In this document: one piece after another, positions 8,050 to 51,419 of the stretch
Layout: each line of letters starts with the position of its first letter
Position numbering within the stretch: the first letter of the stretch is position 1
Assembly (NCBI RefSeq): GCF_000149955.1
Contig: NC_030997.1
Coordinates: forward strand, 1,596,714 to 1,660,713
Direction: 5' to 3'
From: Fusarium oxysporum f. sp. lycopersici 4287
Lineage: Eukaryota; Ascomycota; Sordariomycetes; Hypocreales; Nectriaceae
DNA length: 64,000 nt
The notes under the pieces: model-generated
The model's input: only the letters and a program-made list of their open reading frames with translations
Databases searched by the model: none
What the model was told of the DNA's origin: nothing
Program-made: the position numbers and the translations under genes

Positions 8050-8952
8050 TTAATCTGTTCCAACCAACGTTGCCGCCCAGACATCCATGGTCCGCACCTT
8101 TTTACCATCGAGTCCTTCAACAGCTCTTACAACCGCCTCTCTCCCACTCCTAAGCACAACCTTCATCTTACTGTCCGCAACATATTGCTCAATATCATCA
8201 AGAGAACTCTTGCTTTTCACATCCCCAACTTCCCAGCCACCATCTTGCAGTCCCTCATGCGGCACAATTTCCGTCTCTCGCTCAACTTTCCAGCCTGAGT
8301 CTCCTGCGATATTCTTGATGTCAATTGGGCTTAGCAGACATCGAATGTTCGCTTCGCTGTCCGGCCTTTGGGCCTCAAGTGTAGCTCGCGTCAAAGCAGC
8401 AAGAACGTGAGGGATGGCCGCTGGCTCAGATGCCTTCATAGCGTACTCAGCGATGCAGATTCTGTTCACCCTTCCCTTCAACGCTTTGAGCATGCGTGCG
8501 AGGGTTTCAGGTGCATCGAGATACCATAAGCAGTGCACAAAGACCGCATAATCCCATTTCTTGTCCCCCGTCTCTTTTAGAAAGTCTTCGAGCTGGGTCT
8601 GCCAAAACTTTACACTACCGCCTAAAGGGCCTTTGGTAATGTGTTCTTGTGCTTGGCCGAGGGTGTATGGTGCACCGTAATCAAGAGGTGCGGGGTCGAT
8701 GGCGTCAACGTGGCCATCTTCCCCAATGATATGTCCCAAGACAACAGTGCATGTTCCCTGGCCGCATCCAATCTCGAGAATACTAGAAGAAGCAGGAATA
8801 TGAAAGAAGTTGAGGAGCTCAAGCCGGTGAGTTGTTTGATCAATCTCAATTTGCAGGGACTCTGGCGTTGACAGGGAGTGAGACGCTATTGAAGGAGCGA
8901 TTGACAATGGCAAGGCTTGCCATGTCGCTTGAGAGTGTGTCGGGGCTGTCAT
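8050..8952 (-). CDS. SAM-dependent methyltransferase, class I
   Basis: Single-exon protein of 300 residues starting at the ATG at 8952. Motif I of the Rossmann-type methyltransferase fold is clear at residues 58-67 (ILEIGCGQGT), followed about 20 residues later by the acidic ribose-binding end of strand 2 (VDAIDPAP). WDYAVFVHCLWYL fits motif IV and the catalytic-site strand. No signal peptide or membrane segment is present, so it is cytosolic. The acceptor may be a small molecule, but no neighbouring biosynthetic gene shows what it is. The promoter lies in 8953-9233. Confidence 0.82.
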   Translation of the reverse strand: MTAPTHSQATWQALPLSIAPSIASHSLSTPESLQIEIDQTTHRLELLNFFHIPASSSILEIGCGQGTCTVVLGHIIGEDGHVDAIDPAPLDYGAPYTLGQAQEHITKGPLGGSVKFWQTQLEDFLKETGDKKWDYAVFVHCLWYLDAPETLARMLKALKGRVNRICIAEYAMKASEPAAIPHVLAALTRATLEAQRPDSEANIRCLLSPIDIKNIAGDSGWKVERETEIVPHEGLQDGGWEVGDVKSKSSLDDIEQYVADSKMKVVLRSGREAVVRAVEGLDGKKVRTMDVWAATLVGTD

Positions 8953-9233
8953 ATCGATGAGAATCTGCTAACAACAAATTTTTAGACGCAAGATTTGGGT
9001 AGATGATTATTCAAGGGATTCGACCTTCGCAACGTCAAGGGGTACAAGCTTACACTATTTATAAGCGACCAGCGATCTTACCTGTGACTCATTCGTTATC
9101 CCAGATCTCAAGCTCCTTCCTATACTGGTAATCATCATCCTGTGCTTACAACACGAATCCAAGTCGCCAACAGACCGTCTCGGTGGAAGCATAGTTGGGC
9201 AACAGCAAGAGTTATCAGTGACGTACAAGCTGC

Positions 9234-17604: not shown

Positions 17605-19189
17605 TCATGGGGAGTATTGCTTACTGAACTGGAAGTGGATGATATCTCCATCTTGAACAACCTGCAGAGAACAAGAGTGAGCTTTATGTGGTGTGAGTCG
17701 AGTTGCGTGCACTTACATATGATTTTCCTTCTTGACGGTACTTGCCAGCGGCTTTGATGGGACCCATAGACTTTTGTCCTTCGCAAAGATCATGGAAGTC
17801 TTGATAAGCGACAACCTCAGCCTTGATAAAGCCTCTCTCGAAGTCACTGTGGATAGCGCCAGCGGCTTGCGGTGCCAAGCAGCCCCTGGGAATAGTCCAG
17901 CATCGGATCTCCTTCTCACCAGCTACATCCAAGTCAGCGTTGACTGTACCCTGTCGGAAGGTTTGAACATACCTGTGAAGTAGTATTGTAGTCCGAGCTT
18001 TGTGAAGCCTTCGGTGATAATTTTATCCAACTTTGACTTGACCTTGATGTCCTTGAGGAACTCAGCCTGAGCGTCAGGGTCATCCTTCAAGCTGTGCAGC
18101 TTCTCTTCGAACTCAATCGAAAAGGGAATGATATCGCGGGGAGTACCACCATGCTCAGTAACCCACTTGGCAATACCAGGAAGGTACTTGCACTTCTGTC
18201 GAAGGTAGTCCTTCATTGTCAAGTTGACGAGATAAATGACTGGCTTGGTGGTGATGAGTTGGATCTTCTCGTTGATGAGGGCGATCTCAGCAGGTGTCCA
18301 GCTTCCATCTCGAACTGGTTGGTCCTTTTCCAGCATCTATTTCGTGTCAGTCTTCTTCCCATTTCCTCATTGTCATTTGCTTTCCACTGACTTCTTTGAT
18401 CTTGGTTGTTGTCTCAGTGAAAAGAGGCAACATCTTGTACTTGCCACCAGCTTTTTTGACGATCAGCTCCTCGGCGACGATTTGCTTCGCGAGAATGTCT
18501 AAGATCGGTGTTAGTTTTTATTTCGTTATCGAAGAGAAGGTACATACCGAGATCCTTTTTGCAGAGCTCGCTTTGAATGGTGTCTATATGAATCATTAGT
18601 CAGTTCAGTTACCTCGTCATGCTGTGCTGAACTAACCCAAGTCTCGAACAGGGTCAATCGAGTCGTCGACGTGCAAGACCTGATCGTTATCGAAAGCTCT
18701 GTTAATCGAGCCAAGTCAGCTGGTCCCCCCACGGCTCTGTTCGTCCCGAAGCGTACCTAACAATATGGAACATGCCGTCAACAGCCTGAATGTGTGACAA
18801 GAAGGCATTTCCAAGACCTTCTCCCTGAGAAGCACCCTTGATCAGACCAGCAATGTCGGTGACCTGAAGATAAGCAGGGTACATAGAAGGAGGCTTCCAG
18901 AGGTCACAAAGAAAGTCCTAAGTTCCAACCAATATTAGCCTTCCGCTCACCGTTATTTCGCAGCATCTCAACTTACATATCTCGCATCAGGAACAGCACA
19001 TCTCGCCTCATTAGGTTCAATTGTACAGAAAGGATAATTCTCCGCCGCAGCGCTCTGCTCCGTCAAGAGATTGAACAAGCTCGATTTTCCAACATTAGGA
19101 AGACCAACGCATCCCATCTTCAAGTTCTTGCGAACTCTGCCAAAGGCGACGACATTGTCGATAACGGGCTCGGCTTTCTTAGGAGGCAT
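17605..19189 (-). CDS. OLA1: Obg-like ATPase 1 (OLA1/YchF family)
   Basis: About eight exons encode a conserved YchF/OLA1 P-loop ATPase. From the ATG at 19189 the protein starts MPPKKAEP. The Walker A loop [12 protein letters not shown] follows, then switch and G3 features ([19 protein letters not shown]), the specificity region IYLVNL, and the TGS-type end ([30 protein letters not shown]). The last exon begins VVQDGDII and stops at 17605. The intron at 17932-17970 joins YYFT to AGEKEIRCW in phase. OLA1 is a translation- and stress-linked ATPase and a core gene in eukaryotes. It anchors this window to ordinary chromosomal sequence beside the decayed region. Confidence 0.93.
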
Positions 19190-19991
19190 GGTTTTCTTCG
19201 ATAGTTCCAAAGATTGTAGATGAGATGTTTTGGTTGGTGTTTTTGCTTGGAGAGTTCAAGGGATGGGATTGTGAGGAAGACTTTTCAGAAGTGGCCTGAT
19301 AGCCCACTTTAAAGACATGGGTGTAGAGTGTTCTGGCCAGTTAGTAAAAAGCCACGTTGATACGCTGTAACCTCAAGAAAATACGAGAAAACGCTATGTA
19401 TTGATACCCAGTGAGTTCATTTAATAGCGAATACAGTATGTTAGTTGTGATATCTACAGAGAGGTCCCAGCCTGGTCTATACCGGGTTTCATATCGCCCT
19501 GCGAGGGAAGAAGGTATTCGTGAGGGGTATCACGTGAAGGACCCTGAAGATTTAGTGTAGGGGTGGAGATACCGTTAACTGACAGGACTAAGCCTAACTC
19601 AGCTTCGGTTAGGAAGCGAGCCCACGTTGAAACGTTGTTAGCACGGCCACAGTATTATCTCCGACCACGGCCAAGCCACCTTTGGGTACTAAACTTAGAA
19701 TCTCTATCCAAAGAGATGAAAAGCTTTAGGTAAATTTAGTAGAGACTTAGAAGACCTTTAGATCAGGCATTAGGTGATTTACCAACAGGTCTCGCAACAA
19801 AGTTGAACCGAACTCTCTAGTCTTATTATTCTAACTAGCACTCTAATTACCAGAATCCATGGGCCAGCCCATTACTTCCAGCACCCCATCACTCCAAGCC
19901 AAGACATAATCTCTCCCCCTTCACCCCAACCATTACATGTCTTACTAATATATGTCCAAGTCTACGAGAAACTTTGATGAGTTTTATCTTC
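19190..19991. other. Intergenic region, nothing recognised
   Basis: It contains the OLA1 promoter (right of 19190) and the 3' flank of the repeat-peptide gene. No open frame with support. Confidence 0.5.
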
Positions 19992-20912
19992 TTAGTTGCA
20001 ACCAGCGGCTTGAGCGTTTTGCTTGCCCTGAGCTCCTTGGTGGTGACGGGCCTCAAGCTCTCGCTTGCACTTGGCATTGGCGGCGTTGTTCCCGTTAGCG
20101 GCGGCGGCAGCAGCGTTGTTGCGGTTCTGGCCATTGCGGTTGGCGCCGGCGGCCTGGGCTTTGTTGCCACCTTGAGCTCCTTGATGGTGACGAGCAAAGA
20201 GCTCCTCCCGCTTGTTGTTCTTGCCGTTGGCATTGCCGTTGGCGTTGCCGTTGTTGGCAGCGGCATTGTTGTTGTTGGCAGCGGCGTTGTTGTTGTTGGC
20301 AGCGGCGTTGTTGTTGTTGTTGCAGTCATTGGCAGCGGCAGCAGCTCCGTTACCATTGGCATTACCATTGGCATTGCCATTGGCGTTGCCGTTAGCATTA
20401 CCCTGGGCGTTGCCTCCCTGGTTGCCCTGGTGGTGACGAGCTACAAGTTCCTCATCTCGCTTGTTGTTGGCGTTGCATCCATTGGCGTTGGCATTGGCGC
20501 CAGCGTTAGCATTGTTGTTGGCGTTCTGACCCTGAGCCTGGTTGTTGTTCTGGTTGCCTTGAGCCTGGTTATTGTTTTGGTTGCCCTGAGCCTGGTTGTT
20601 GTTTTGGCCTTGGGCCTGGTTGTTCTGGTTGTTCTGTCCGCCCTGGTGATGAGGCTATGCTTGTTAGATGAAGTGCTACTAGTAGATATTAAGACTAACC
20701 TCTCGTTTCTCAACGCTGAAGATCGGGAGAGCGAGAGCGTCTGCTGGGAGAGCTGCAGCAGCCATCAAAGCCTTGCTCACGTTAGCTTTAAAGTATCATG
20801 ACCATGGTGAGCAACTTACAGCAACATGTCCAAAGCTTGAGCGAGGAACTCGGCTGTCTTGAGAGAAAGCCTGAGCGGCGAGGACAGTGACGACAACGTT
20901 GGAGAAATACAT
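19992..20912 (-). CDS. Secreted Kex2-processed repeat protein, candidate RiPP precursor
   Basis: Three exons give 275 residues: 20820-20912, 20700-20771 and 19992-20654. Introns are 48 bp (gtaagt, gctaac branch) and 45 bp, both in phase. A hydrophobic N-terminal signal (VVVTVLAAQAF) is followed by a proregion and then a tract extremely rich in Asn, Gln, Ala and Gly. Lys-Arg pairs at 53-54, 120-121, 203-204 and 252-253 are each followed by acidic residues and soon by HHQG (57, 129, 211, 259). Three share the form KR-(D/E)-E-x-L-x-ARHHQG in variants. This is the plan of secretory precursors cut by Kex2: mating-factor-like KEPs and UstA-type dikaritin precursors. Four mature peptides of roughly 22-83 residues are expected. 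A UstYa-like gene lies 1.1 kb away, transcribed in the opposite direction. No Tyr occurs in the repeats, unlike ustiloxin cores. Confidence 0.8.
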
Positions 20913-22047
20913 CTTGACTTGGAAGTGATGGAAAAGTGTAGAAGTGGTTTTCTGACCGGCAGGTAAAATAAGAGTGATGTAGAATAAGGGTAGGACTAGC
21001 CTTGAAAGTTGATTAGAAGAGAAGAACGTTTGCGTCAAGCAAAGCTAAGCTCAGATGATTGAAGAAGGAAATGTGAGTTGGTTGAAGAATTAAGGTTGTA
21101 GCTGAAGATGTCAAGCTTCTTATACTACTCGAATTGGGTATGTTGAGTCTAACTTGAGATGATAACCCCAGATTCTTTGAGTCTTAGAATAGATCTCCCC
21201 CTAGATCTCCCAAGTTCAGAGAATCGTCAAACGCAAGCGCCAAGACAAGACCGATAGCGTTTGAAGATTCGTTGGACATGATGCCGACATTGCCGCTTTG
21301 TTGAGTCAACAACGGAATAACCGCCGTGTACGAAAAAGGTTCTTCTCCTTGATACCCTCGTCGGCCTCCCACTAGGTAACTTTGGGTCAAGGTGTAGGGA
21401 CGGTTAGAGCGGCCAATCATGAAACTCCAGCCTCGGCCGAAACCCAAGACTCTGGTCGTTGTTTGCCCAAACGCGAAAACGCGAAGTGACATGCCAAAGT
21501 CGTTAGTGGCGCGCCATTGGTGGAAATAAAACTCAAACAAGTTTCGCTAGTTTCACATGATTGGTCTAGAAGACACGACCCCTGACGGCTACGACGTATA
21601 GTGCCTCACGTTGCCTGAGAATATTACTAACCCCTGTTACAGATATTGTCTGGGCCTATAATTCTCGGTGAGTAATGGTTTACTATTCCTGATTCGAGAT
21701 CTGTCAAACCCGTGAAGCTGGAACATTGTTTTAAGTGGGTTGTCTGGATGACTTGATGTAGGATTCTGTCGTCGCACAAACCATTTCACGTTTCGTCTTG
21801 GCGTTTGAAGAGTTGTTATTGGGAGCCGATTATCCGCTCACTGTAGAGACCCAAACGCCAAGTCAAAGAAGACCAATTATAGAATCAGGTTTCTGGGCAT
21901 TGATATATACATCATTGCTTCAAAACTTGTCGCACTTATTTAATTTTTTTCATCGCCCTGGAGGTTGACTTTCATTCTCTTTCTGCAGGCCAGTCATTTT
22001 CTTAAATTTTTCGAAGGTTTAGTCAATCATTATTACGTGCAGCAACA
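20913..22047. other. Shared upstream region of precursor and UstYa-like genes
   Basis: The divergent genes at 20912 and 22048 face away from this interval. A minus ORF from about 21490 to 21184 (about 102 residues from its ATG, ending near FDDSLNLGDLGGD) has no recognised motif. It may be chance or a small gene. Confidence 0.4.
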
Positions 22048-22943
22048 ATGGGTTCAAAGTATCGTCCAGTTCCTGACGATGAAGAGCAACAAACTCATGA
22101 GAAGAACGCTCTCTTATCACCTCTGCCCATCTACACCAACATCTCGCCATTCATTTCACAGCCAGGTGCACATCCAATCTTGATATGGATATGTCATGGT
22201 GTCTTACTCTCCTTCTCATTGGCGTTCTTCGCCCTTTCATTACTGCTTCGCGCCAGCCCTTTACAAAGTGGCGTTTGCAATCAGCCAAACTTTCCTTACT
22301 GTAAGTCTGTCGCTTTGAATTTTTGACCTCTCTTTGACACCAGATAGCTCCCGCAGAAAGCGTTGCAGAATTCCATACGGTCCGATACAATATTACTCCA
22401 GCCCTCGAGATGTCCGAGTTTGTCGGATACGGACCTGAAGTTGATAAAGCGTGGAACCATGTTACATACGACGTCGGTGATCAAATGATTTCACAAGCTG
22501 AGCTTGACAAACTGGGTCTTGACCCCAAATCTCTCAAGGTCAAGGATCCCAAGACAGGGCATACGGGCTATCGTGTTGGAATCCAAGTGTTCCATCAGCT
22601 TCACTGTCTGAACTTGCTTCGGCAAGAAACCTACAGGGATTACTACTCCAAGATGGGTGGTGATATTGAGGTTGAGCCTGAGGACTTGAGAGGACATCTT
22701 GGTAAGTCAGACCTTTTTCAGCCGGTTGCTTGATCAATGCTAATCTGATTTGTAGATCACTGCATCGAGATTCTGCGAAACAACATAATGTGCCAGAGCG
22801 ACACTGGTGTTTTCGCATTCAAGTATTACGATGGCTATGATGGTCACTGGCCTGATTTTAGCACGCTACATACATGTCGCAACTTTGATGCCATTCGAGA
22901 CTGGGCGTTTGAGCATGCTGTTGTATTTGGGGATGAGGATTGA
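22048..22943 (+). CDS. DUF3328 / UstYa-like protein
   Basis: Three exons: 22048-22300, 22348-22701 and 22756-22943; 264 residues. Introns of 47 and 54 bp use gtaagt donors, and the first resumes at gatag. A cytosolic N-terminus precedes one transmembrane helix (about residues 45-68, ILIWICHGVLLSFSLAFF). The DUF3328 body follows with both paired motifs: HQLHC at 167-171 and DHCIEILR with His204-Cys205. In ustiloxin-type pathways UstYa proteins are copper-dependent oxidases that crosslink or cyclise ribosomal peptides after secretion-pathway entry. Both HxxHC/HC motifs are intact, so the protein looks functional. It sits beside the Kex2-repeat precursor and is probably its modifying enzyme; that link is inference. 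Confidence 0.87.
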
Positions 22944-24262: not shown

Positions 24263-25141
24263 ATGGTTTCCAAGCTCGCTCTCGCTCTCTTCTTCGGCAA
24301 CGCCCTAGCTGGTCTGGCCGGACGTGCCATTCCTCCTCGCTGCGCCATCGCAGACCCTACCCCCGAGCAAGTCCAGCACGCTCAGAACCTCAAGAAGATC
24401 GAGTCCGTCTCCAAAGTCGCCGCTACTTCCATCACCGTCGACACCTACTTCCACGTTGTGTCTTCTTCCTCCTCAAAGTACATCACCAAGGCCAAGCTCC
24501 AAGCCCAGCTCAAGGCCTTGAACGACGCTTACGGTCCTCATGATGTTACCTTCAACCTCATCGATACCACTTTCACCACCAACTCTAACTGGGCTGCTGG
24601 AAATGGTGAGGTTGCTATGAAGAGACAGCTTCGCCAGGGTGATTACAAGACTCTCAACTTGTACTTCACTGATGTTGCTAAGCTTGACGGTCTTGACGCT
24701 CTTGGATACTGCTTCTTCCCTGAGCCTAATGTCTCAACTGGATCCTCGACCTTCATCCGTGACGGCTGCGTCATTGTCGCTGAGACCGTCCCCGGAGGTT
24801 CTATGGCTCCTTATAACCTCGGTGGAACTGCCGTCCACGAGGTCGGTCATTGGTTCAACCTCTTCCATACCTTCCAGGATGGTTGCACTGGTGGAGATCT
24901 GGTTAGCGATACCCCTGCTCAGGCTAGCCAGACCAGTGGATGCCCTGCTCGACGGGATAGCTGCCCTAACCAGGCTGGTGATGACCCCATCCACAACTTC
25001 ATGGACTACTCCGATGAGTAAGTTATTCCCGAAACATTGATTGATATAATTACTAATAGTTATTGTAGTGTTTGCTACGAGGAGTTTACCCCTGGCCAGA
25101 AGACCCGCATGCACAGTGCTTGGACCACTTATCGCAAGTAG
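24263..25141 (+). CDS. Secreted M43 (pappalysin-type) metalloprotease
   Basis: Two exons: 24263-25019 and a short last exon after a 51-bp intron (gtaagt to tgtag), ending at the TAG at 25141. The protein has a signal peptide (MVSKLALALFFGNALAG), a proregion and the catalytic domain. The zinc site HEVGHWFNLFH has the HExxH plus third His, and the Met-turn is NFMDYS. Paired cysteines near the end fit the MEP1-like fungal group. The length of about 275 residues is standard. These are extracellular proteases. It lies 1.3 kb after the UstYa-like gene; there is no sign that it belongs to that pathway, though RiPP loci can include peptidases. Confidence 0.9.
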
Positions 25142-27048: not shown

Positions 27049-30000
27049 TCAAGGACCATAATGAACCCAAGTTGCCCAGAACCTTGGATCGATCTCAGCT
27101 TGTCGCTGTTCCAGAACAGCTAGTCTCAACGCCCTCGCAGACCGATCTCCTGTAACACCTGGACCTTCTTTCAGTAAATCACCATAAAAGACCTTGGAGA
27201 CAAGACCGCAAGTTTCATCCTCGGCTTTCCACAAACTAGCCACTACACAGGGTACACCAGCCATTTGAAACCCAGCGGCAAGATGGATCGATTCCTGAGG
27301 GAGCATTGGGTCACCTGTGATAGCCGTCTCACATGCTGATACATAGATGAGAGAGCAGTTTAGCTTCTTTGGCGCTGACATCATGCTTTGAACGTCGAGG
27401 ACGTTTCCTCTCATGATTTCGCCATTTGCATCTTGGGTGTACCAGTCTCGAAGGAGGAGACCACTGCGCGCTGGGTTTAAGTTGTCCACTTCGCCGTGGC
27501 AGGCGAAGTGGGCGACCTGTGAGTTTAATAGGCCCATGAGTGCCTCTTTTCGAACTGGGCGGTCATGGATTACGGCGTCGTATCCTCCGCGAGTGAGAAT
27601 TGTGTCAATAGTGTCGATCTCGCTTGAGGCATGTTGCAGTGGCGCAAGGTGATCTGTGGTCTCCATCTTAACTAGCATCGCTTTCTGATGTCCACCATTT
27701 TGCATGATCTCTTTCTCACGATCTCTCACAAATGATAATCCTCGAAGGGTATTTGTATAGGATGGAACGCATCGATCGAGCACCGTGCAACGCTCTCCCG
27801 TCTCTACCGCACGTCGATGATCTCCAGCCGCATGAATGGGCCAAGCATTAATGCTGCTCGTCGTCAACCACCAGATCCTCGGCAAAATTGCGTCTTTAGG
27901 AGCCCCATCGTACCCCAGGCTGTGTAGAATCGGTTCTGCTACAACTTCCCAGAGCCATGTGAGTAGATAATGTAGAAGATCCCCACGCTGACCATCTCCG
28001 TCATTCGACATATCAATGGCTTCGCGAAAGAGTTGCTTGTGCTCCCTGATGTCATCGACAGTGAATTTGGGAAGTGAGATTTTCCGGATGTCAGTGGTGG
28101 TAATGGTGAGAGCGTAGCCCCCACTCAGAGGTTCCGTTTCGACAATGACGATTGGACCAGACTCAGCAAGTTCATAGAAGTGCGAGTCCTCGCGTGGAAG
28201 CCTGAGAAAATCCCGGAACCCATCCTTTGCTCGGATCTCGGCTATCAGTTCCTGAAACGAAGTCGACTTGTTGAAAGCCGCCTGACTCTGCAAAAACTTC
28301 TTATCAAGATCGAAGCGTGCCGCGCGTTGGCCCCTGACCTTCTCGGAGTTCCTCGCTTCGATGAACCGACTTGCCAAATCTGGGAACTTCTCCTTCAGCT
28401 GGTCCAGGCCAGAATCCACGCCCTTGTTGAGAATCTCCTCCCACAAGACACATCGACTTCTCTCATATAGTTGAAGTGCTTCAAACACTGAATCTCCAGC
28501 GGCAATCGAAAAGCAAAGAGCAAGTGTCGGCACGGCTTGAAACTTCTTCGCTTGTCGTAACTGATCAGCCCGCGTGGTACAAGCATATACCGCAAAAGGG
28601 AGATCCTCAGCTGCTTCTCGGATGTAGTTTCTTGCAGCTGTCGGGTCCTTTGCCACCACATGCGCAAACATAGATGCGTAGACTTTCATCCACGCGAGCG
28701 TATGACGAGCGATACCTGGTGCCGATGCGAATTGAGCCGTCATGATCAAGTATGCGTTTGCAGCGACGGTGCTCAATGGAGCGGGACTGACAGTATAGAT
28801 TGCGATGAGTAGTTCGGCTTGATTGATGAGCAGGCCTCCACGGTTAATGTCGTCCATACCACCCATCGAGATGCACTCTTGGAAGTTCACGAGCGCATCA
28901 CGAAGGTCTCGCAGGCTGAGTGTCTTCTTAGCTCTGTACTGCAACGCACGCGTCAAATTAACCCGCGCTGAGAATAAGTAAAACTTATCCATGCATCCAC
29001 AAGAGAGAGCCTTGTTGAAGTTATTCTCAGCTTGAGCAAGAAAACTTAGATCTTCTTCTCGGTGGTATTGGCGAAGATATGCTGTTCCCAGCATATTATG
29101 CAATGCCGAGATTTCGACCGGTGGGAGGTTGAGATTCCTGCCCAGAACCTCTTCAACAATCTGACCAGCTCTGATGACATCTCTGACATCCTCGGTATCG
29201 TCGTATCTGAGCTGAAGGGCGTGACTGAGGCTTCTTGTCCTCGACCCAGCTCGAACCTCAGTAGGCCCAGTTGCTTCGAGACACTTCTCAAAAGACTTGA
29301 TGGCTGTGTTGATATCTTCCAACCTCCCTGAGAACTTGAACTGATACATGGCTGTGTTTCCGAGGCCATGCGTCAGCATTATGTTCATAGTACCAGCAGA
29401 AGATCCCTGCTCTTTTGAGACGTCAAGGCCGTCCTGATATGCTTCAGTGGCCTGTGAAAGATACTTGACATCGCCGGTACATTGGCATTTGACGATGTAA
29501 GCGTTGCCGATGTCATTCGTAACAGTAAGATAAAAGGGATCTGTTCGTGACGCTAATTCTTTCGCTGCAACAAGTGCCGTTAAAGCACCATCGATGAATT
29601 GCTCTTGCCCCGGAATCTGAGCTGACACAAAAGCAGCCCTCCCAGAAGCTCTCAAACATCGAGCTTTCATAGGGTCTTCGAGGTCGTTGAGAAAAGGCAA
29701 GACATCGAGATTTGCCTGACACGCGTTACGTAAATCATCTTTGTCTCCATTAGCTTCGAACCTGAGGAGAAGTGCTATAGCGAGTTGTTGGTAACAGTTG
29801 ATCTGTTGGTGGCCTTGTAAATCTGGATGGTCGAGGGCGTCTTGTAAGCACTTAACAGCCTGGTCAATTTCTGAGAGCAGTCCGGTTTTGCTGAATTGCT
29901 CTTCATGAGCACCCGCTTCTCTGATGAGTCGTGCTGGTGGTTTTGGTGACGGGTCGATGATCTGGAGCTCATTCATCCGCTCGACAAGCTTGTCTGCTTC

Positions 30001-31077
30001 GATTTGCGTTTCTCGGTGATTGTTCTGTTCAGCCCTCTCACCCAGTGCATTCGCCAACTCTTCCAGTGCATCTGTCGAGTTTGGATGAACCCGAAGGGCC
30101 TGTCTCAGGTAGCCGATTTCTGCAGAAGGGTCTTTGGCATTCTCTTCTTCATTCAGCTTCTGCTGTAGCGACGCCAGGTTGATGAGACAATTAAAACGAT
30201 CTTTCGAACGCTTCTCTTCAGAAACTGCGAGGCCTCTATTGAGAGAAGCTTTTGCCTTTCTGAGGTTCTCGATATCCTGGTTCAGGTCGTATAAGTGAAC
30301 GAAACACGCGGCGCGAGCACGATAGATATCTGCAATGGTGTATCTGAAAGGCCTCGAGTCGAATTGGTTTGGGACCGAATCCTCGGCCAGCTGGAGAGTA
30401 GCCATACTTTCACGAAATAAGCTTTCCTGATTTTCCTTCTCATATAGGGCCCTCTCCTGTTGTAGCTTTGCCAAACCAAGATAGAAAATCGGCTTCCCTG
30501 GGAAATTAGTTGCCAACGCTTCATGGAAAGCCGTAGTCGCATCCTCAAAGTCGACGTCTTCGTGTGTTGCCTTGTACCTTTGTGTCAAAATATCGCCGAG
30601 GTCATCCAGATGCAATGCTCGGTTTGAATGATCCCGCGGTCCAAATTCAACAGCCTTTCTGAGATATTCCACTGCCCGATCCAGAGCTTCAGACTCATTA
30701 TCTGGAGCTGCAACCTCCCATTGTCTCCGCAGAACTCTTCCAAACATGCTGACAACGACCCCTCTCATAGGCTCGCTTTTGAGAACATTGAAAACAGCCA
30801 GAGCACCCAAAATAGCGGCATCCTTCAAGCCAGACGTATTGTTGCCGACGCCTCTCGTCATCAAGACTTCTTCACTTGCCATAGAGAATCGCCTTGCTCT
30901 CTCAGAGCGATCCGAAAGCATGACAGCATAAATATACTTGCATGTTTCCGGATCCACGTCCTTTAGAAAATCTTTACTACGGCAGAACTGACCGTCCGGA
31001 ATGAGCTCTTCATCTTGCTCTTGAGATGCAATCAATGTTGCCGCATGTTCAAGCTGACTTGTGAGATCTGATGCCAT
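27049..31077 (-). CDS. TPR-CHAT protein (caspase-like protease)
   Basis: Single-exon gene. The ATG at 31077 (MASDLTSQ) gives 1342 residues; the open frame upstream starts only with TTG. Residues from about 100 to 900 are tandem TPR-like helical repeats (HLDDLGDILTQRYKATHE, ALQLRYDDTEDVRD). The last about 350 residues are a CHAT domain of the separase/caspase clan. The dyad His1194 (VAHFACHGEVD) and Cys1249 (LIYVSACETAITGD) are both present, and LAAGFQMAGVPCVVASLW is typical of its end. CHAT proteins cut partner proteins, including gasdermins in microbial cell-death systems. The gene is head-to-head with a candidate gasdermin-like gene 478 bp away. The whole protein is intact. Confidence 0.9.
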   Translation of the reverse strand: MASDLTSQLEHAATLIASQEQDEELIPDGQFCRSKDFLKDVDPETCKYIYAVMLSDRSERARRFSMASEEVLMTRGVGNNTSGLKDAAILGALAVFNVLKSEPMRGVVVSMFGRVLRRQWEVAAPDNESEALDRAVEYLRKAVEFGPRDHSNRALHLDDLGDILTQRYKATHEDVDFEDATTAFHEALATNFPGKPIFYLGLAKLQQERALYEKENQESLFRESMATLQLAEDSVPNQFDSRPFRYTIADIYRARAACFVHLYDLNQDIENLRKAKASLNRGLAVSEEKRSKDRFNCLINLASLQQKLNEEENAKDPSAEIGYLRQALRVHPNSTDALEELANALGERAEQNNHRETQIEADKLVERMNELQIIDPSPKPPARLIREAGAHEEQFSKTGLLSEIDQAVKCLQDALDHPDLQGHQQINCYQQLAIALLLRFEANGDKDDLRNACQANLDVLPFLNDLEDPMKARCLRASGRAAFVSAQIPGQEQFIDGALTALVAAKELASRTDPFYLTVTNDIGNAYIVKCQCTGDVKYLSQATEAYQDGLDVSKEQGSSAGTMNIMLTHGLGNTAMYQFKFSGRLEDINTAIKSFEKCLEATGPTEVRAGSRTRSLSHALQLRYDDTEDVRDVIRAGQIVEEVLGRNLNLPPVEISALHNMLGTAYLRQYHREEDLSFLAQAENNFNKALSCGCMDKFYLFSARVNLTRALQYRAKKTLSLRDLRDALVNFQECISMGGMDDINRGGLLINQAELLIAIYTVSPAPLSTVAANAYLIMTAQFASAPGIARHTLAWMKVYASMFAHVVAKDPTAARNYIREAAEDLPFAVYACTTRADQLRQAKKFQAVPTLALCFSIAAGDSVFEALQLYERSRCVLWEEILNKGVDSGLDQLKEKFPDLASRFIEARNSEKVRGQRAARFDLDKKFLQSQAAFNKSTSFQELIAEIRAKDGFRDFLRLPREDSHFYELAESGPIVIVETEPLSGGYALTITTTDIRKISLPKFTVDDIREHKQLFREAIDMSNDGDGQRGDLLHYLLTWLWEVVAEPILHSLGYDGAPKDAILPRIWWLTTSSINAWPIHAAGDHRRAVETGERCTVLDRCVPSYTNTLRGLSFVRDREKEIMQNGGHQKAMLVKMETTDHLAPLQHASSEIDTIDTILTRGGYDAVIHDRPVRKEALMGLLNSQVAHFACHGEVDNLNPARSGLLLRDWYTQDANGEIMRGNVLDVQSMMSAPKKLNCSLIYVSACETAITGDPMLPQESIHLAAGFQMAGVPCVVASLWKAEDETCGLVSKVFYGDLLKEGPGVTGDRSARALRLAVLEQRQAEIDPRFWATWVHYGP

Positions 31078-31555
31078 GGTGAATGTTGTGAGAAGCCGGC
31101 ACTTGAGCAATCATTTAGTGACAGGAAAAGAGGGGAAAGATGACTTGCGCAAGCACTAAGGATCAGTAACAAGACATATGATCACTGGACTCTGATGCGG
31201 GGTTTTCATCCTAATGTATGTAAGAAATTTGAAACATTGGTTCCAGGTGACATAAAGATTGAAACAATGTTAGGACAATTTGCGGGCAATTTAAAGGCGT
31301 GGTAGACGAGTTTATTTTTCATCGATTATCGAACGGCCGAGACAATTGTGCAATTAGACCAGCTGATAGGGTACAGTATCACAAGCTGAAGCGCAATGTG
31401 ACATTGCGCGCATAAATATTGGCACACTATTAGCGCCACCTCGGCTAAATCGGGTTGAGATACGAGGTATTTGTGCTGCCTTGCGTTTACCCAAGATAAG
31501 AACTGACCTACTACCCCTCCATCATATAATAAAGTCTTCCAAATAACTAACAATA
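31078..31555. promoter_or_regulatory. Bidirectional promoter of CHAT and gasdermin-like genes
   Basis: 478 bp separate the two divergent start codons. No specific operator was recognised. The arrangement suggests co-regulation. Confidence 0.45.
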
Positions 31556-50308: not shown

Positions 50309-50480
50309 TATTCTCTTCTGTCCCCGAATCCCGGGCGCAATTGCCTACTACGACTATCAGCATATAAACAGTTCCTTCTTGGCAGAAAAAAGAGCTTAAA
50401 TGATATCAGCTCTTAGTGATATCATCCACTAGTCTATCACTGCACTTCATACGCCAGGAACAATTCCCCCAAACCTCAAG

Positions 50481-51419
50481 ATGAAAGCCGTTCAGATCCT
50501 CGGAAACATGTCTTCTCCAAAACTCACCACCAACTTCTCTATGGAGAAACCCGAACCTGTAAAGTCCGATATTCTGGTTCGTGTTCATGCCGCTGGAGTC
50601 ACTGGCGATGAAATTATGTGGCCAGAAACATATCGACGTCCATCCCGCGTTCCAGGCCATGACATATCCGGAGTCATCACCGCATTTGGCCCTGACTACT
50701 CTGGACCTCTGAAAATAGGCCAAGAAGTTTTTGCGTTTCTATCGGCGCACACGGGCGAGGGACAAGCTGACTATGTCCTTTGCTCTCTTGACGAGGTCGC
50801 CCCAAAGCCAACAGCGCTTTCACATGCCGAAGCATCTGCGTTGCCGATTCCGGTTCTGACAGCATGGGAAGTTCTCGATTATGCTGACATTGACGCTGGA
50901 ACGAGAGTTCTAGTGACTGGCGCGTCGGGTGCAGTTGGTCAGCAGTTTGTGCAGCTTGTCAAACATTTGACAGGTGCTCATGTGATTGCACTAGCATCTG
51001 CGACAAACAAGCAGCTACTGGGCGACGTACCTGACGAGATTATTGACTACAAAACTCCAAACTGGGAGAAGTATGTACAGGAAGTAGATGTTGTCTTTGA
51101 CACGGTGGGCGGAGAGGTTCTGGCAAAGACGTGGGAAACTGTCAAGTCTGATGGCATGATCATTACAATCGGTGATCCTGCGCCGTCGTGGGCCTTTGGA
51201 GGTGATGAACCTTTAGAGTCCTTGTCCCTACCAGGTGTCAGGTATAAGTATTTCATCGTATCGCCGAACGGAGAGCGCTTGGAAAAGATGGCTGGGCTGT
51301 TTGATGAGGGAGTGATCAAGCCACTGGCGGTCAAGACGTTTCCGTTTGATCAAGCGGTTGAAGCTTGGGAGCATGCAAGGCAGCGAGGAAAGGGTTACAA
51401 GGTCGTGATTGAGTTTTAA
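50481..51419 (+). CDS. MDR-family quinone/zinc-free alcohol dehydrogenase-like oxidoreductase
   Basis: Single exon, 312 residues from the ATG at 50481. The N-terminal GroES-like domain shows VRVHAAGVTGDE and PGHDISGVI. The Rossmann domain has VTGASGAVGQQFVQL and DVVFDTVGG. The zinc-ligand cysteines of classical ADHs are missing, which puts it with quinone-oxidoreductase-like NADPH enzymes (PIG3/RTN4IP1-type). A cytosolic or mitochondrial reductase of quinones or enones is likely. Its promoter faces that of the cupin gene, and it shares a motif with the adjacent regulator promoter. Confidence 0.89.
   Translation: MKAVQILGNMSSPKLTTNFSMEKPEPVKSDILVRVHAAGVTGDEIMWPETYRRPSRVPGHDISGVITAFGPDYSGPLKIGQEVFAFLSAHTGEGQADYVLCSLDEVAPKPTALSHAEASALPIPVLTAWEVLDYADIDAGTRVLVTGASGAVGQQFVQLVKHLTGAHVIALASATNKQLLGDVPDEIIDYKTPNWEKYVQEVDVVFDTVGGEVLAKTWETVKSDGMIITIGDPAPSWAFGGDEPLESLSLPGVRYKYFIVSPNGERLEKMAGLFDEGVIKPLAVKTFPFDQAVEAWEHARQRGKGYKVVIEF

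Follow-up and report, generated by a model that had tools for sequence, protein, structure and literature searches.

A candidate two-gene, dikaritin-like RiPP locus with tyrosine-free His-His repeat units in Fusarium oxysporum

Introduction

The dikaritins known as ustiloxins, phomopsins and asperipin-2a are produced by UstYa-family oxidases from repeat precursors that Kex2 cleaves. Tyrosine is the site of cyclisation in all three, and asperipin-2a has a single DUF3328 protein (PMC7329392). Tyrosine occurs in 65.6% of the repeats of Kex2-processed repeat proteins (KEPs) that are linked to a DUF3328 gene (PMC7329392), which leaves about a third of such repeats without it, and the feature that defines the dikaritin class has been stated to be the DUF3328 protein, not tyrosine (PMC12048977). 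A survey of ascomycetes counted 5.25 KEPs per strain and found that DUF3328 genes peak next to the KEP gene; its KEP types include two with di-histidine, G-3 (64 members) and G-8 (49 members), of which 57 and 45, respectively, have a DUF3328 gene no more than 15 genes away (Umemura 2020, PMC7329392). In these types, HH is accompanied by proline, and the genus lists for G-3 and G-8 in the accessible part of that survey do not include Fusarium (PMC7329392). The accessible part of a survey of Trichoderma RiPPs contains no HHQ, HHG or HHP (PMC7099791), and we found no description of an HHQG precursor family in the literature searched, which consisted of partial texts and excluded most subscription journals. 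DUF3328 enzymes are also active outside RiPPs, namely in the biosynthesis of cyclochlorotine (PMC12435403) and in polyketide and non-ribosomal clusters (PMC12048977).

Here we describe a gene pair from Fusarium oxysporum f. sp. lycopersici 4287, located in what we call the window, that is, the whole 64-kb stretch of DNA that was analysed (C12:1596714-1660713); the complete genome of 61.2 Mb in 71 contigs was also searched. Like the dikaritins, the pair combines units repeated between Lys-Arg (KR) sites with an adjacent UstYa gene whose product carries both HxxHC motifs, and like asperipin-2a, the locus has one DUF3328 protein. Unlike the dikaritins, its units lack the tyrosine core of ustiloxins, phomopsins and asperipin-2a and instead have a His-His head, one cysteine and a likely second processing site, LxAR; unlike the compact repeats of the ustiloxin, phomopsin and asperipin precursors, they are separated by long, variable Asn/Gln/Ala/Gly spacers. 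The pair resembles G-3 and G-8 in having HH in its repeats, a DUF3328 gene nearby and a proline beside HH in the first unit, and differs from them in occurring in Fusarium, a comparison based on the published descriptions of motif and neighbours.

Results

The HHQG precursor gene

The rebuilt model of the precursor gene comprises three exons on the minus strand (20912-19992) and encodes 275 residues. Exon 1 (20820..20912) encodes residues 1-31, which form a signal-like N-terminus and the start of a pro-region, and it ends at the same boundary as in a paralog on contig C7. Exon 2 (20700..20771) encodes residues 32-55, a hydrophobic pro-region that extends to the first KR (KRE), and exon 3 (19992..20654, including the stop codon) encodes residues 56-275, with four HHQG units and Asn/Gln/Ala/Gly-rich spacers. 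The N-terminus is hydrophobic, with an 11-residue Kyte-Doolittle mean of 2.24 from residue 6, and the protein matches no Pfam or NCBIfam domain at E <= 0.01. KR occurs at residues 53, 120, 203 and 252. The first HHQG motif (residues 57-60, 20640..20651) was placed by hand from the gene model; the second (residues 129-132, 20424..20435), third (residues 211-214, 20178..20189) and fourth (residues 259-262, 20034..20045) were located by the gene model together with a pattern match in the genome. All four KR-delimited parts of exon 3 contain HHQG, whereas three repeats set apart by dibasic sites are the minimum expected of a KEP; PMC7329392 applies a stricter rule, under which the repeats must emerge from self-alignment and be 8 aa or longer, and the long spacers may cause the precursor to fail it.

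After KR, the four units read EP-HHQG, DEELVAR-HHQG, EELFAR-HHQG and ELEAR-HHQG. The first-pass annotation of this DNA had described a 275-residue protein with four KR sites, each followed by acidic residues and HHQG; this description holds except that an acidic stretch precedes HHQG in three of the four units only, the first being introduced by KR-Glu-Pro. It had also stated that the units lack tyrosine, and indeed the sole tyrosine of the precursor is residue 2, tryptophan being absent altogether. The four motifs exceed chance: when the stretch of 221 residues behind the first KR was shuffled 200,000 times, one HHQG motif appeared in 813 shuffles and two in none. In the 61-Mb genome, the pattern Ala-Arg-His-His-Gln-Gly was found at five sites (three in the window precursor, one in the paralog and one in a frame with nearby stops), a count that is a lower bound because the pattern used CGN arginine codons only; the reversed control gave none.

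Predicted processing

HHQG directly follows LxAR in three of the four window units, and the two units of the C7 paralog read LEAR-DP-HHGG and LVAR-HHQG. Across the 15 His-His units that we collected from five proteins, every one follows LxAR, LxAR-Asp-Pro or KR-Glu-Pro. Exactly one cysteine is present in 13 of them, both exceptions belonging to the F. gaditjirri protein P0001, and one unit of the F. redolens protein P0003 has kept the cysteine and lost His-His. Kex2 is described as tolerating other residues at P2 and preferring leucine or another aliphatic residue at P4 (PMC8528282), which makes LxAR a likely second Kex2-type cut; the Glu-Pro behind KR in the first unit agrees with the Ste13 signature, given as XA or XP (PMC6339444). 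Judged from these sites, the mature peptides released by any of the routes would all begin with His-His, and the predicted mature peptides contain no Tyr, Trp or Phe. Cleavage at both KR and LxAR would give HHQG peptides of 17 to 74 residues.

Relatives of the precursor

The paralog (C7:558674-557888) encodes 229 aa with two His-His units and has the same exon boundaries as the window gene. In F. gaditjirri, the orthologue P0001 (FGADI_5762) has six HHQG units; between it and the window precursor, HHQG, KR and LxAR are retained amid spacers of differing length and sequence. The database model of this orthologue begins 82 residues upstream of MYFSN, and because the window stretch that matches those residues runs into a stop, we read the model as an over-long gene prediction. 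The F. austroafricanum protein P0002 and P0003 are both similar to the C7 paralog, whereas the likeness of the F. proliferatum protein P0004 to the precursor is confined to the N-terminus. P0004 has a counterpart in the present genome at C4:2809145-2809792, with a similar first exon and without His-His; this Asp/Gln/Gly-rich protein is the third member with the MYFSN N-terminus. The members without His-His suggest that the N-terminal module defines a small Fusarium family, only some members of which carry His-His units. Protein searches in which 7,991 and 1,088 candidates were scored returned four relatives, all from Fusarium; absence elsewhere is weak evidence, because repeat precursors change fast, are of low complexity and may be missed by gene models.

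The UstYa gene

The UstYa gene lies on the plus strand in three exons (22048-22943), and its 264-aa product matches PF11807 with E = 3.9e-54. Exon 1 (22048..22300) encodes an N-terminal tail and a transmembrane helix, exon 2 (22348..22701) the motif HQLHC and the start of HLDHC, and exon 3 (22756..22943, including the stop codon) the rest of HLDHC, as placed by the gene model, PF11807 and alignment. The protein thus has two HxxHC motifs, HQLHC (167-171) and HLDHC (201-205); the 'DHC' reported earlier beside HQLHC is the end of this second, complete motif, which spans an intron. In an alignment of 46 sequences, the window protein and 45 of its 102 homologues, both motifs are nearly or fully invariant. 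The AlphaFold2 model of P0005, a homologue with 97% identity (mean pLDDT 79.9), has a helix at 43-69 and places the motifs on two neighbouring helices, 164-179 and 195-216; no solved structure of a UstYa relative was found in the PDB by sequence. The model therefore suggests a likeness to CctR, a membrane-associated, binuclear copper DUF3328 hydroxylase of cyclochlorotine with an HxxHC motif (PMC12435403), in that a transmembrane helix is combined with paired HxxHC on two helices; the substrate of CctR is a non-ribosomal cyclic peptide, unlike the substrate proposed here.

At E <= 1e-60, we found 102 UstYa homologues in many Sordariomycetes and beyond. Their tree, in which 26 of the 44 inner branches have good support, mainly follows taxonomy as judged by eye, so that the enzyme looks old in the Sordariomycetes. 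The range found for the enzyme is far wider than that found for the precursor, for which it may or may not have evolved. We also considered tying the UstYa orthologue to type G-8 through genera common to both (Pseudogymnoascus, Sporothrix, Colletotrichum, Pyricularia and Grosmannia) and set this overlap aside because the tyrosine type G-6 overlaps too.

The pair and its intergenic region

The two genes are divergent, and their start codons are 1,135 bp apart, in agreement with the spacing of 1.1 kb given in the first-pass annotation and with the proximity of UstYa gene and precursor that marks such loci. Five colinear blocks are common to the intergenic region (20913..22047) and the promoter of the paralog on C7 (blastn E 5e-10 to 4e-5). 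The region also contains an inverted-repeat element, CTTGGCGTTT...AAACGCCAAG (21797..21862, found by pattern search), 185 bp before the UstYa start, a position from which it may control the UstYa gene. A search of the 61 Mb for the inverted pair CTTGGCGTTT...AACGCCAAG located it twice, each time in an HHQG promoter, and the control gave none; because both promoters stem from one duplication, this recurrence shows conservation. The 7-mer CGCCAAG is present in three copies in the 1,135 bp, against 11 in the remaining 62.9 kb of the window.

In F. gaditjirri, the precursor FGADI_5762 and the UstYa orthologue FGADI_5763 (86%) have consecutive locus tags, which suggest that they are adjacent, and the same longest contig, of 176,295 bp, is given for both. 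F. austroafricanum has the UstYa orthologue as well, and the sole precursor found there is of the C7 type and lies on another contig, so that the pairing expected in other Fusarium genomes is indicated in the first species and was not found in the second. Within the 19.8 kb around the C7 paralog (8.4 kb on one side and 10.6 kb on the other), no UstYa-like sequence was detected, a tblastn search of this stretch for a UstYa relic gave nothing better than E 4, and contig C7 is absent from the PF11807 matches listed. An HHQG precursor can therefore do without an adjacent oxidase gene.

Other UstYa loci in the genome

The genome contains at least 11 PF11807 matches at at least seven UstYa places, and for the six places outside the window we read the surrounding sequence, about 10 kb per place. 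A Kex2-repeat precursor lies within 2 kb of the UstYa gene at four of the seven (window included), always in divergent orientation. At C9:153906-155988, four NTYGKAYTLKMKDDGFEKR-like repeats are divergent from the UstYa gene, with 604 bp between starts, and this looks like an ordinary tyrosine-containing dikaritin pair. At the C12:1118988 place (C12:1117380-1119431), a precursor with three FFLQTDVGWFDGGDKKR repeats is divergent from its UstYa gene, whose start is approximate; the distance from the precursor start to the first UstYa exon recognised is 1.1 kb. Of the four pairs, the one at C1:595817-599499 is the weakest; there a multi-exon, tyrosine-rich precursor (YTTYGDYK, YPSYGSYG, YSSYGHYKR) with fewer Kex2 sites was recognised by eye, divergent and with 1,847 bp between starts.

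An automatic repeat scan caught three of these four precursors, missing the one on C1, and its three hits among 937 ORFs of 143 kb all lie beside UstYa genes, although this set is no random sample, because it consists mostly of the window and UstYa neighbourhoods; the same scan gave no hits among 321 ORFs from five random 9.9-kb stretches. No blastn similarity at E <= 0.1 was found between the window promoter and the other three loci with a UstYa gene and a KEP. No repeat precursor was found near the remaining three UstYa genes, a pair on contig C3 and a single one on C6. The three are closely similar (two have identical PF11807 scores and the third a shorter second match), and two of their neighbourhoods, L021 and L022, have long flanking ORFs in common that are oppositely oriented.

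Neighbourhood of the pair

For a cluster scan, we selected 22 long ORFs of the window in addition to the two gene models. The pair adjoins a GTPase exon (18968-19210), and beside the UstYa gene is an M43 metallopeptidase-like ORF (24263-25021), followed by a minus-strand open frame of 1353 aa (27049-31110) that contains a CHAT domain and also matches TPR. The nearest methyltransferase-domain ORF seen (8050-8967) is about 11 kb from the pair, and further off are a dehydrogenase ORF (50433-51419), an amino-acid permease, two Zn2Cys6 regulators and an NmrA-like ORF; F-box-like and GDSL lipase-like matches fell below the cut-off. Among the 22 ORFs, there was no match to a tyrosinase, an S41 peptidase or a peptide synthetase, and the repeat scan found no further Kex2-repeat ORF in the 64 kb. 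We considered a larger gene cluster and rejected it, as none of the scanned neighbours could be tied to the pair.

Discussion

How should this pair be understood? The first-pass annotation preferred a minimal locus to a chance pairing, and the consecutive tags in F. gaditjirri, the three comparable pairs elsewhere in this genome and the rare, conserved promoter element all favour that choice; from sequence, the pairing looks real. We consider it probable, at roughly two in three, that the precursor and UstYa genes together form a dikaritin-like RiPP locus of a tyrosine-free kind as yet uncharacterised, with a modified peptide different from the known tyrosine-based products. The earlier suggestion of a possible new RiPP needs to be narrowed: we found the HHQG family to be undescribed in the texts available, and di-histidine precursors beside DUF3328 genes have already been typed (PMC7329392), so the locus probably represents no new RiPP class and instead a newly described HHQG form within a known kind of locus.

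If the main reading is correct, the precursor would enter the secretory pathway by means of its signal-like N-terminus, Kex2 would cleave behind each KR and probably behind each LxAR, and the Glu-Pro of the first unit would be trimmed off by a dipeptidyl peptidase of the Ste13 type, so that all resulting peptides start with His-His-Gln-Gly and contain one cysteine. The membrane-anchored UstYa protein, whose paired HxxHC motifs would be predicted to bind two copper ions on the luminal side, as shown for CctR, might then oxidise the His-His head or link the peptide to another residue, such as the lone cysteine, and the modified peptide would be secreted. The second HHQG precursor, which has the same promoter element, may be processed in trans by the same enzyme. 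We speculate further that this is a tyrosine-free branch of the dikaritins in which a copper-dependent UstYa acts on His-His peptides with one cysteine, yielding, for example, histidine-oxidised or His-Cys cross-linked and possibly copper-binding products from two dispersed precursor genes with one promoter element and one enzyme; taken as a whole, this picture is tentative and rather unlikely.

A different possibility is that the His-His peptides remain linear and unmodified, with a metal-binding, surface or signalling role, and that the closeness of the UstYa gene is incidental or only regulatory. The paralog on C7 fits this view, as it matches the window gene in N-terminal module, promoter element and HHQG motif and yet has no UstYa neighbour, as does the absence of Tyr, Trp and Phe from the predicted mature peptides; moreover, the share of KEPs with HH in their repeats is similar with and without a DUF3328 gene nearby, at 5.7% and 3.9% (PMC7329392), so that HH alone is a weak marker. 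The consecutive tags of precursor and UstYa gene in F. gaditjirri and the three further UstYa genes of this genome that adjoin such precursors point the other way, and we regard unmodified peptides as a serious but unlikely alternative.

It is also conceivable that the UstYa enzyme serves an older substrate in trans, either another precursor or a non-ribosomal peptide, and that the HHQG gene arrived beside it. Such a history would accord with an orthologue that is widespread and mainly follows taxonomy while relatives of the precursor were found only in Fusarium, and with the activity of DUF3328 enzymes outside RiPPs. The restricted range is nevertheless weak evidence, since precursors change fast and are liable to be missed by gene prediction, no other Kex2-repeat ORF was found in the window, and no peptide synthetase is among the 22 scanned ORFs, though the methyltransferase-domain and dehydrogenase ORFs are; we therefore think this history improbable. 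That the precursor is a low-complexity open frame and no real gene, as its composition (Asn and Ala account for 72 and 65 of the 275 residues) and its single close orthologue among public proteins might suggest, is scarcely credible given the exon boundaries common to it and the C7 paralog, a dN/dS of 0.23 against that paralog over 58 aligned N-terminal codons, the conserved promoter blocks and the retention of HHQG while the spacers vary.

If the main reading is true, the locus would be a Fusarium case of the di-histidine types, which, in the text available, are known by motif and neighbour count (PMC7329392). With only two genes, the system is small enough for direct testing, and the pairing of a His-His precursor with a copper oxidase from this family would widen the range of peptides on which UstYa enzymes act.
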